Source: Cytobacillus oceanisediminis 2691 (GTDB lineage Bacteria > Bacillota > Bacilli > Bacillales > Cytobacillaceae). From it: DNA of 64,000 nt. This document shows positions 10,150 through 28,857 of this stretch, in pieces; within the stretch, counting starts at the first letter, position 1, and every line of letters begins with the position of its first letter. The translations under genes and the position numbers were made by a program. A model generated the notes under the pieces. It made no database searches, was not told the DNA's origin, and was given only the letters and a program-made list of their open reading frames with translations. The stretch spans positions 62,001-126,000 of the forward strand of contig NZ_VEEP01000001.1 in NCBI RefSeq assembly GCF_007678455.1. The letters run 5' to 3'.

Positions 10150-10224
10150 GGATTGGAAAAATAATATTTAACTTGTGATAAGAAAGAAGAAGTAGTATAT
10201 TCATAGTGTAGAAACTAAATAATA

Positions 10225-10316
10225 ACCACAAGGGGAGCTGCCAGAGAGCAGCTGAGAGTGAGCGGCCGAGTTCTTACCCTTTGAACCTGTTAGTTAATGC
10301 TAGCGAAGGAATGTGG
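10225..10316 (+). ncRNA. TPP riboswitch (THI element)
   Basis: The conserved THI elements are present in order: ACCACAAGGGGAGCTG, GCTGAGAGTGAGCGG, ACCCTTTGAACCTG, and the closing GTTAGTTAATGCTAGCGAAGGAATGTGG. It lies upstream of thiT with an intrinsic terminator between, so it should terminate transcription when thiamine pyrophosphate is bound. Confidence 0.97.
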
Positions 10317-10327
10317 ATGCGATAGGA

Positions 10328-10372
10328 AAGCAATCATGGGAATCCTATATCGATCCCCTGATTGCTTTTTTT
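10328..10372 (+). terminator. riboswitch-controlled intrinsic terminator
   Basis: AAGCAATCA / TGATTGCTT stem extended inside by GGG/CCC, followed by seven or more T residues, between the TPP aptamer and thiT. Confidence 0.9.
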
Positions 10373-26549: not shown

Positions 26550-27929
26550 TTGTCAGATTATCGGATTGAAAGGGATACGATCGGTGAAATTAAGGTGCCA
26601 TCAGATAAATACTGGGGTGCACAAACTCAGCGAAGCAAACAGAATTTCAAGATTGGAACGGAAAAAATGCCAATAGAAGTGATCTATGCTTTTGCTGAAG
26701 TAAAGAAAGCGGCAGCCAGAGTGAATGCTGCTTCTGGAAAGCTATCGGAAACAAAAGCAAAGGCGATTGAGACGGCCTGTGATGAAGTTCTTGCCGGGCA
26801 ATTCGATACGCATTTTCCATTGGTCGTGTGGCAGACAGGAAGCGGAACGCAGTCTAATATGAACGTCAACGAAGTAGTCGCCAGGAGAGCGAATGAACTG
26901 CTTGCAGAGCAGCAGGCGGAAGAAAAAGTCCATCCGAATGATGATGTGAATATGTCACAGAGTTCGAACGATACTTTCCCGACAGCGATGCATATTGCAG
27001 CTGTAAAAAAAGTGGCGGCTGAAGTATTGCCTGCGCTCGAGCTCCTAAAGGAGACGTTAAGGAAAAAAGAACAGGAATTCAATGAAATCATCAAAATCGG
27101 CAGAACCCATCTCCAGGATGCGACCCCGCTTACATTGGGGCAGGAAATAAGCGGATGGAAAGCGATGCTCGAAAAAGATAAACAAATGATCGAGGATGGC
27201 CTCAAATATGTGAGAGATCTGGCAATAGGCGGGACAGCTGTCGGAACAGGAATAAATGCAGCGAAAGACTTCGGTGACCAGGTAGCAAGCCAGCTTTCCA
27301 GCCAGACAGGAGAAACGTTCCGTTCGGCACCGAATAAATTCCAGGCACTGACATCGCATGATGAGATTGTCTTCCTTCACGGTGCATTAAAAGGACTGGC
27401 AGCTGACTTGATGAAAATTGCTAATGATGTTCGCTGGCTTGCCAGCGGCCCAAGAAGCGGGATTGGTGAGCTCTCCATACCTGCAAATGAACCAGGCAGC
27501 TCCATCATGCCCGGCAAAGTCAACCCAACGCAAAGTGAGGCACTGACAATGGTGGCAACCCAGGTTTTCGGAAATGATGCGACAATCGGATTCGCGGCAA
27601 GTCAGGGTAATTTTGAGTTGAATGTATTCAAGCCTGTCATCATCTATAACTTCCTGCAAAGCGCGAGACTGCTGGCAGATGGAATGAGATCCTTCAATGA
27701 TAACTGTGCAGAAGGCATTGAAGCGAATCTGGATGTCATTGCTGGGCATGTTGACCGGTCACTTATGCTTGTCACGTCCTTGAATCCTCATATTGGTTAT
27801 GAAAAAGCAGCTGAAATCGCCAAGCTTGCTTTCAAGGAAAACACTACTCTGAAGGAAGCGGCAATCAAGACAGGGTATTTGTCCCCAGAACAATATGATG
27901 AGTGGGTCAAGCCTGAAAAGATGATTTGA
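26550..27929 (+). CDS. fumC: class II fumarate hydratase
   Basis: 459 residues, the usual length. It interconverts fumarate and L-malate in the TCA cycle. The three conserved superfamily regions are present: [15 protein letters not shown] (about residue 97), [10 protein letters not shown], and the lyase signature [13 protein letters not shown] (about residue 318), whose flexible loop carries the catalytic Ser. The tetrameric, iron-free class is clear from the motif set. The start codon is TTG with GAGGAGGG upstream. It is known as citG in B. subtilis. Monocistronic. Confidence 0.97.
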
Positions 27930-27999
27930 TGGAGAGTATACTCATTGGTACTCTTCCAGGGGCCATGTGAAGATACGTAGTAAGTGAACTGGACAAAAG

Positions 28000-28027
28000 T
28001 AAAGGCCCCCTGATGAAGGGGGCCTAA
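28000..28027. terminator. bidirectional terminator between fumC and the SASP gene
   Basis: AAGGCCCCCT / AGGGGGCCT stem with a short GATGA loop between converging genes. Its T tail is better for neither side than the other; the T-rich TTATTTTATT follows at 28034. Confidence 0.65.
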
Positions 28028-28056: not shown

Positions 28057-28260
28057 TTAGCGTGCAGATCCGCCAAGTTGTTGCTCAGCCATTTGCACAA
28101 GGCGCTTAGTGATTTCTCCACCAACTGAACCGTTAGCACGAGAAGTCGTTTCGCCGCCAAGCTGTACGCCAAATTCTGTTGCGATTTCGTACTTCATTTG
28201 ATCAAGAGCTTGTTGAACACCGGGAACTAATAATTGATTAGAGTTGTTGCTACTAGCCAT
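28057..28260 (-). CDS. alpha/beta-type small acid-soluble spore protein
   Basis: 67 residues, full length for the family. It coats and protects spore DNA. The germination protease site YEIATEFGV is present, as are the DNA-binding motifs [20 protein letters not shown]. The ATG at 28260 is preceded by AAAGGAGG; an apparent N-terminal extension in the same frame is the structured leader, not protein. A sigma-G promoter lies about 230 nt upstream and two tRNA-like folds lie in between (separate entries). Expression is expected in the forespore. Confidence 0.97.
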
Positions 28261-28296
28261 TAATATTTCCTCCTTTGTGTTTTTCAGAGTTGTATT

Positions 28297-28356
28297 TGGG
28301 TTAGTATTGGAGTCGAACCAATCATGGCTTTTGCCATGCCGCCTGGGGTTAACCCA
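28297..28356 (-). ncRNA. tRNA-like element 2 in the SASP leader
   Basis: Minus strand: TGGGTTA and TAACCCA form a perfect 7-bp acceptor-like stem. Inside are a hairpin CATGGC-AAAA-GCCATG and a canonical T arm, ATTGG-TTCGACT-CCAAT (5-bp stem, 7-nt loop with TTCGA). Two nt separate the T arm from the acceptor strand, and there is no CCA. Total 60 nt, with no normal anticodon arm. Confidence 0.6.
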
Positions 28357-28367
28357 TGATGAGGAAT

Positions 28368-28427
28368 TGGCTGGGCTAGCCGGAATTGCACCGGCTCGCG
28401 TCATAGCTGCCTTCTAGGCTTAACCCA
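28368..28427 (-). ncRNA. tRNA-like element 1 in the SASP leader, with encoded CCA
   Basis: Minus strand: TGGGTTA pairs with TAGCCCA (7 bp, one G-U), followed by a discriminator G and CCA. The T arm GCCGG-TGCAATT-CCGGC is directly contiguous with the acceptor strand as in a real tRNA. Between acceptor and T arm are only 25 nt with a GCC-TAGAA-GGC mini-hairpin, so there is no room for D plus anticodon arms. It may be a tRNA mimic or pseudo-tRNA. Its 5' strand could alternatively pair with the 3' strand of element 2. Confidence 0.6.
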
Positions 28428-28484
28428 ATGTCTTTATTCGTTTGCTGACCTGCGTTTTTTCTTTGCTGCTGCTTTATTAATAAC

Positions 28485-28514
28485 TAGTATGTTTTGTTTC
28501 GAAAAGTTTATTCG
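28485..28514 (-). promoter_or_regulatory. sigma-G promoter of the SASP gene
   Basis: Minus strand CGAATA, 17 bp, CATACTA: a perfect -10 and a near-perfect -35 for forespore sigma-G. It predicts a ~218-nt leader. Confidence 0.8.
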
Positions 28515-28605: not shown

Positions 28606-28857
28606 ATGAAAAAGATGGGGATGTGCCCGATTTGCAATGGCTTCAGAAACGTTGCTCTGCCATGTCCTAACTGCAGCGGCAGCATGGAGGACAGCGGGAG
28701 GGAAGCAGACTTTTATGATGATTACAGCCCGTATATGCCAATTGATCAAATGAAACTGGAGGATGGTTATCCTGCTGACTTTACAGAGGAGGAATGCCCG
28801 CACTTGTTCAAATGTCCAAACTGCGGGACAAGCCAGGTATTTTTAATCAAAGAATGA
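28606..28857 (+). CDS. small zinc-ribbon protein, function unknown
   Basis: 83 residues with several CxxC knuckles: CPICNG near the start, CPNCSGS about residue 25, and CPHLFKCPNCG near the end, enough for one or two zinc-ribbon sites. The centre is acidic (DYSPYMPIDQMKLEDGYPADF). GGAGAAAGG supports the ATG at 28606; ATG 28615 is an alternative. Divergent from the SASP gene. Probably a small metal-binding cytoplasmic protein. Confidence 0.75.
   Translation: MKKMGMCPICNGFRNVALPCPNCSGSMEDSGREADFYDDYSPYMPIDQMKLEDGYPADFTEEECPHLFKCPNCGTSQVFLIKE

Follow-up and report, generated by a model that had tools for sequence, protein, structure and literature searches.

The leader analyzed here lies on the minus strand of a 64,000-nt stretch of DNA (the window; GC content 43%) and extends over about 220 nt from a promoter to a gene, between the open reading frames 28606-28857, which we take from its sequence to be zinc-finger-like, and 26550-27929, which from its sequence is presumably fumC-like. 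Read along this strand, the order of the features is GAATA, 17 nt, CATACTA, a first tRNA-like element (E1), a second one (E2), AGGAGG, and the ATG of an alpha/beta-type SASP gene. GAATA (28509..28513, -) was read from the sequence as the -35 motif and CATACTA (28485..28491, -) as the -10 motif, the latter being the same in all 20 aligned leaders of the genus; we call the promoter sigma-G-like by comparison with the sigma-G consensus. The Shine-Dalgarno motif AGGAGG (28269..28274, -) was likewise read from the sequence. The open reading frame at 28057..28260 (-) translates into 67 aa, which, to judge by their SASP motifs, are an alpha/beta-type SASP, and it is followed by a terminator-like hairpin with a T-rich tail (27994..28024, -; read from the sequence). 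The only Rfam family that reached its gathering score in the window was a TPP riboswitch at 10221-10328 (+; 68.5 bits), far from the leader.

According to the initial annotation, a sigma-G promoter and the SASP gene enclose two tRNA-like folds, and the two folds were borne out by alignment, conservation and shuffled controls. The span it had given, 28297-28514, contains both elements, but its end at 28514 takes in the promoter as well. E1 (28368..28427, -) has an acceptor of seven pairs, one of them G-U, formed by the 5' strand TGGGTTA (28421..28427, -) and the 3' strand TAGCCCA (28372..28378, -). The T-arm GCCGG-TGCAATT-CCGGC (28379..28395, -) lies flush against the acceptor, which is followed by the discriminator and an encoded CCA, G-CCA (28368..28371, -). 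The 5' half contains a D-arm, GCC-TAGAA-GGC (28409..28419, -), the pairs of which covary in relatives, and the vestige of an anticodon arm without an anticodon (28396..28408, -). E2 (28297..28356, -) carries no CCA and consists of the acceptor TGGGTTA/TAACCCA, a hairpin, CATGGC-AAAA-GCCATG (28323..28338, -), and a T-arm, ATTGG-TTCGACT-CCAAT (28306..28322, -). Two nucleotides (AC) stand between its T-arm and acceptor, and E2 is therefore not flush as a tRNA would be. Thus, the 7-bp stems starting with TGGGTTA and the T-arms of 5 bp with 7-nt loops that had been described are present in both elements, apart from the G-U pair of E1 and the offset of E2, whereas the canonical set of 7-bp acceptor, 5-bp/7-nt T-arm and NCCA end was found complete in E1 only. 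Folded alone, both elements were mildly unusual in stability (E1, -22.9 kcal/mol, z -1.6; E2, -18.7 kcal/mol, z -1.8). The absence of room for a normal anticodon arm had also been noted. Indeed, an anticodon arm with a 7-nt anticodon loop is vestigial in the window and absent or replaced by a variable hairpin in relatives, but E1 has a short D-arm like that of tRNA-Gln, and many relatives possess a third arm where the anticodon arm would be, though without an anticodon.

Standard tools did not recognize the elements as tRNAs, in agreement with the earlier view that they are not ordinary ones. ARAGORN reported no tRNA or tmRNA gene in the window or in 28 loci. The Rfam tRNA model did not match the element at gathering score (window and 10 loci) or at E ≤ 0.01 (20 loci), and over the same three sets no T-box, cobalamin or other leader or riboswitch of Rfam coincided with it. 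A lax Rfam search of the leader returned only matches far below gathering, including tRNA-Sec at E2 (18.0 bits; gathering 47). A known Rfam leader was therefore rejected. The T-loop of E1 bears a resemblance to the cobalamin riboswitch, and this candidate was also dropped, as no Rfam search that was run gave a cobalamin match. The negative ARAGORN result and the compensatory changes reported below led to the rejection of an ordinary or decaying tRNA gene. To judge from these searches, E1 is a member of an unannotated RNA family. In one locus (L202), a Bacillaceae-1 RNA (RF01690; 72-133, +; 36.7 bits) is situated upstream of the E1 leader.

The origin of the elements was traced with the tRNA set of the genome, in which 65 places match the Rfam tRNA model and for which ARAGORN yielded 45 different sequences, the ends of some being frayed. 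The best alignment of E1 was to the tRNA-Gln(UUG) of its own genome (score 59.6; next other tRNA 39.4), and the same tRNA was best for E2 (51.3; next 38.7). Against all tRNAs, shuffled versions of E1 scored 26.4 on average (sd 4.0, best 41.8) and those of E2 24.4 (sd 3.9, best 34.0). On the basis of these shuffle scores and of the compensatory changes, a chance origin was rejected. tRNA-Gln was also the best of 28 well-formed tRNAs for 113 of the 121 distinct E1 sequences. After removal of the acceptor strands, 46 of the 121 chose Gln and 38 Cys, and with the D region alone 23 chose Gln and 32 Cys. On the strength of the scores with and without the acceptor strands, the elements are descendants or close copies of tRNA-Gln as far as alignment can tell, and the acceptor is the carrier of most of this signal. 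E1 shares with tRNA-Gln(UUG) the acceptor TGGGYTA/TARCCCA, the GCCA end, the D-arm GCC...GGC and the position of the T-arm. In contrast to it, E1 lacks an anticodon, is 60 nt long in the window, resides in an mRNA leader and is missed by ARAGORN.

By a DNA search, 20 of the 21 genomes in the same genus, that of the window included, were found to carry the leader; the other copies are 82-99% identical, the one in G011 falling into two pieces, and G013 is the sole genome without it. In the alignment of these leaders, the promoter, E1 and E2 are near-identical islands, while the spacer from the promoter to E1 differs among the genomes both in sequence and in length. None of the 33 predicted pairs had changed on both sides. 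The pairs hardly vary within the genus, and therefore covariation says nothing at this level. For wider searches, a covariance model (R1) was built from 30 E1 sequences that had been found by similarity to the window, so that the searches with it favour copies resembling the window at positions 1-3 and in the T-loop. R1 separated E1-like matches of various lengths (41.6-73.7 bits) from tRNA-length ones (75 nt, about 38-40 bits among the matches listed), which were dropped as tRNA-Gln genes. E1 of the window scored 69.5 bits. E1-like matches of at least 41.6 bits were present in 114 of the 193 genomes of the GTDB family and in 15 of its 25 genera. In the sample of the order, 108 of 397 genomes matched at E ≤ 4e-6, and 104 remained when the four with 75-nt matches only (G387, G408, G430 and G522) were dropped; the values of 114 and 104 are tallies of listed matches by score and length. 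The phylum-wide sample gave 4 of 398 genomes at E ≤ 1e-6, all inside the order. BLAST found matches in 81 of the 193 genomes of the family; many of those in genus g18 at query positions 44-71 proved to be genuine tRNA-Gln genes and were set aside. The stems are thus conserved in related species across much of the order.

A pattern for the 3' half of the element, which selects for a TGC loop, CTARCCCA and RCCA, retrieved 83 stretches in named genomes, all of which were read. One of them (L264) is a tRNA-Gln gene and the other 82 are elements, found among others in Mesobacillus, Cytobacillus, Neobacillus, Rossellomorea, Heyndrickxia, Anoxybacillus, Parageobacillus, Aeribacillus, Lederbergia, Robertmurraya, Niallia, Siminovitchia, Metabacillus and Bacillus methanolicus. 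A SASP gene is next downstream in 81 of the 82 (judged by eye in L266, L279 and L296); the sequence of the remaining one (L244) ends just past a start that reads MAN. Among all 121 distinct leaders, a SASP gene follows in 115. The exact pattern had no match in viral contigs. As this was the case and both acceptor strands are present, a remnant of a tRNA-Gln attachment site was rejected. In the genome of the window, three alpha/beta SASP genes were found at E ≤ 0.001, and the element precedes one of them and, by eye, not the other two. A SASP paralogue (L321) that is 95% identical to the SASP of the window has, also by eye, no tRNA-like element in its upstream region.

The covariance model of related leaders that the initial annotation had suggested revealed compensatory changes in all three scored helices. 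In 88 distinct E1 sequences, aligned by fitting to the model, 96.5% of the cells were paired (acceptor 98.4%, T-arm 99.8%), with acceptor pair 7 unpaired in 9 of the 88, and pairing fell to 10-53% when the partner was slid by 1-3 columns. Changes on both sides occurred in 9 of the 15 pairs and in 101 cells, compared with shuffled means of 4.7 and 25.0, and none of 500 shuffles reached either value. A smaller MAFFT alignment gave 93.1% pairing and 15 doubly changed cells (5.0 on average after shuffling; 0 of 500), but only 3 pairs had such changes, where shuffling gave 2.6 on average and at least as many in 271 of 500 runs. Acceptor pairs 4-6 swap across lineages, as in TGGACCA/TGGTCCA, TGGATGA/TCATCCA and TGGGCTA/TAGCCCA. 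In contrast, U1-A72 was present in 87 and both G2-C71 and G3-C70 in all of the 88 sequences, a fixity that is partly ascertained, as R1 and the pattern favour TGG/CCA. The conservation of the 3' end was taken from 74 matches found without the 3'-half pattern, since that pattern had selected RCCA. An xCCA end was present in 73 of these, and the discriminator was A in 42 and G in 32. The encoded CCA reported for E1 is thus a conserved feature; within the genus of the window, two E1 copies end in GCCG and GCCT.

Total element length ranged from 52 to 128 nt, and 14 single copies that were folded had z-scores of -1.3 to -4.6. In seven of them (L061, L075, L208, L238, L239, L245 and L285), the minimum-energy structure was a four-armed cloverleaf with an acceptor of 7 or 6 bp, a D-arm, an anticodon-less hairpin in place of the anticodon arm, and a T-arm, followed by NCCA. 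The others were less complete: the third arm has 2 bp in E1 of the window and in L053, the D-arm is missing in the g8 copies L057, L059 and L194, L211 has no third arm, and E2 has a 2-bp stub where the D-arm would be. The distance from the end of the element to the SASP start was nearly constant, with a median of 33 nt (interquartile range 30-34) in 97 single-element leaders, among which L181 (11 nt) and L066 (227 nt) are probably parse errors, and with 29-38 nt in 18 two-element leaders. A CATANTA motif stands 8-135 nt before E1 in 96 leaders.

The outer strands of E1 and E2 can also pair with each other, for which reason a switch had been envisaged. In the window copy, folding indeed predicts the long-range pairing of the 5' strand of E1 with the 3' strand of E2 as optimal (151 nt, -49.2 kcal/mol), and the folding z-scores were -3.0 for the 151-nt double element and -1.5 for the 233-nt leader. 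Because E1 and E2 have one common acceptor sequence, 34 of 41 two-element entries, which count some genomes twice, cannot discriminate between own and cross pairing. In five leaders with diverged acceptors (L211, L215, L216, L054 and L076), 12 of 12 own pairs were kept versus 9 of 12 cross pairs; L206 had 11 own versus 9 cross pairs, and L019 was a tie (11 versus 11). Many species possess one element only, and most E2 copies have no CCA, no U1-A72 and an offset acceptor. Because diverged leaders favour pairing within each element, the switch does not appear to be general, but it could still form in the window copy.

Genus g8 offers a different situation. The element precedes a SASP gene in three of its genomes (G039, G042 and G044), whereas in five of eight (G037, G038, G040, G041 and G043) the element and its GCCA are kept while a SASP ORF is absent at this place. 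At the five orphan loci (L055, L056, L059, L060 and L194), a terminator lies within about 15 nt of the element. By eye, the third-arm stems of the orphans differ by paired changes (GCCGGG/CCCGGC, GCCAGG/CCTGGC and GCCTGG/CCAGGC). If the gene loss was shared, this suggests that the RNA itself remained under selection afterwards. In three orphans (L055, L059 and L060), GAATA-17-CAAACTA stands 107-147 nt upstream; it departs by one mismatch from the consensus applied, and 0 to 2 of 300 shuffles were as good. For L056 and L194, only sites with two mismatches were present (25 and 17 of 300 shuffles as good), and likewise for the SASP-bearing L057 and L065 (30 and 34 of 300).

Taken together, E1 and its looser copy E2 are almost certainly a domesticated tRNA-Gln-like element in the leader of one alpha/beta SASP gene in much of the order. 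The acceptor pairs 1-3 of tRNA-Gln, the T-arm and the RCCA end were kept, the anticodon arm was reworked without an anticodon, and the shape and the CCA end appear to be held by selection. Descent from tRNA-Gln is also what one would expect of a decaying tRNA gene, as the initial annotation had considered, or of an attachment-site fragment of an integrated element. While the tRNA-Gln ancestry is clear, the presence of both acceptor strands, the compensatory changes, the retention before the same kind of gene throughout the order and the lack of a viral contig with the exact pattern speak against decay, an attachment site or chance, and these explanations are very improbable. The features of the element point in different directions with respect to its role: the acceptor/T helix with RCCA to RNase P, the fixed pairs 1-3 to a partner specific for Gln-tRNA, the fixed spacing to an action at or near the start of translation, and the orphans to an RNA product. 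We hypothesize, giving it about even chances, that a tRNA-Gln gene was captured early in the order into a sporulation leader and became a control element that, via RNase P or via GatCAB/GluRS reading U1-A72, sets the life or the translation of the SASP mRNA in the forespore, and that in one genus it may have become a stand-alone RNA.

Among the individual mechanisms, we tentatively rank RNase P-type processing first, because it accounts for the CCA and for a top half that is intact while the rest is free to vary. The forespore transcript would offer the top half of a tRNA (acceptor and T-stem with R73-CCA) to RNase P, cleavage 5' of U1 would remove the short 5' leader, and a closed tRNA-like fold with a CCA end would then form the beginning of the SASP mRNA, some 33 nt ahead of the start codon. 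With its CCA encoded, E1 would escape RNase Z, so that the fold would remain attached and could shield the 5' end from RNase J1, which would result in a long-lived SASP mRNA. Cleavage of a pseudoknot substrate by RNase P is described as requiring a 3' RCCA motif (PMC12710915), RNase Z substrates as CCA-less precursors and RNase J1 as a 5' exonuclease, and the pbuE mRNA as affected by the RNase P of B. subtilis (PMC2777011). In congruence with this, the acceptor and T-arm are kept while the total length varies more than twofold, the end is xCCA with a purine discriminator in practically all matches (73 and 74 of 74), and the near-constant spacing is compatible with a folded 5' end by which the SD motif is not occluded. 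RNase P favours U-1, but the base before U1 shows no such preference (A 74, T 26, C 15 and G 6 among 121). RNase P can also work without a D-arm and a third arm, which are nevertheless often kept as stems, and the two variants within the genus that end in GCCG and GCCT do not fit either. Nor does it need U1-A72, G2-C71 and G3-C70, and yet pairs 1-3 are fixed while pairs 4-6 swap. This fixity suits the main rival, which we consider somewhat unlikely, namely a sensor of the Gln-tRNA pathway, in which GatCAB or a non-discriminating GluRS would most probably bind the element and tie the translation of a Gln-rich SASP to the supply of Gln-tRNA.

In PMC9976931, the three pairs are described as bacterial Gln identity pairs and amidotransferases as dependent on U1-A72, the latter also, for tRNA-Asn, in PMC4206432. 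As a sequence feature of this putative ligand they are found in E1 only. A sensor would also agree with the near-constant spacing to the start codon and with the 8 Gln among the 67 residues of the window SASP. However, the anticodon has been lost, A is commoner than the Gln-identity G at the discriminator, the element is, by eye, absent from the other two SASP genes of this genome, and the fixity of the pairs was, as stated, partly ascertained. The spacing would also be expected if the fold contacted the 30S subunit beside the SD motif and promoted or timed SASP translation without any tRNA enzyme. The distance to the ATG is near-constant whichever element is last, while that from promoter to E1 is not, but the conserved CCA and U1-A72 would be left unexplained, as would orphan copies without a SASP ORF, and such an initiation element is improbable. 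The orphans, with their nearby terminators, the paired changes in their third arms and the one-mismatch promoter sites of three of them, would suggest that the locus is the source of a small tRNA-like RNA acting in trans, for which the SASP mRNA is merely the carrier. Yet a SASP gene follows in nearly all leaders, its loss in g8 may be recent, and the other two orphans offer only two-mismatch sites, though two SASP-bearing relatives do no better; this reading is quite improbable.

CCA-ended tRNA-like folds are known from viral genomes and from tmRNA, the tRNA-like domain of which has an acceptor and a T-arm with CCA and no anticodon. In contrast to tmRNA, which ARAGORN did not find, the element precedes an mRNA. 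We know of no CCA-ended tRNA-like fold that has been conserved as the 5' leader in a bacterial mRNA, and a search of open-licence papers revealed no earlier report of a tRNA-like SASP leader. tRNA-like structures in RNAs are already known, and what is new here is an anticodon-less, CCA-ended, tRNA-Gln-like fold in a bacterial mRNA leader. It marks a gene of spore DNA protection across much of the order and joins sporulation to tRNA biology, and it would offer a natural system for the action of tRNA enzymes on mRNAs as well as a new RNA family. Plant viral tRNA-like structures also end in CCA and in some cases have no anticodon, but they are pseudoknotted and located at the 3' end of viral RNAs, whereas here a bacterial 5' leader is concerned and no pseudoknot is needed. 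The thrS operator of E. coli, too, resembles a tRNA and lies in a 5' leader close to the ribosome site; according to PMC9976931, however, it mimics anticodon arms and has no equivalent of the acceptor, the reverse of the acceptor/T half with CCA and without anticodon found here. The pseudo-tRNA tRNA-Other of Bacillus cereus differs in that PMC3399842 describes it with a Trp anticodon and next to a pathogenicity island rather than in the leader of a SASP gene.

A minor observation concerns the T-loop, in which U55 is replaced by G in 116 of the 121 distinct E1 sequences, part of this set having been selected by the TGC pattern. The 75-nt tRNA-Gln gene at L264 (1750-1824, +; Alkalihalobacillus) has an unusual G55 T-loop, TGCGAAT, that was otherwise seen in E1. 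In E1 and E2, the D-loop changes along with this position: G55 occurs with AG and U55 mostly with GG, as judged from five U55 copies of E1 and related sequences. We make no claim on this co-change, which is a possible sign of an altered tertiary contact.
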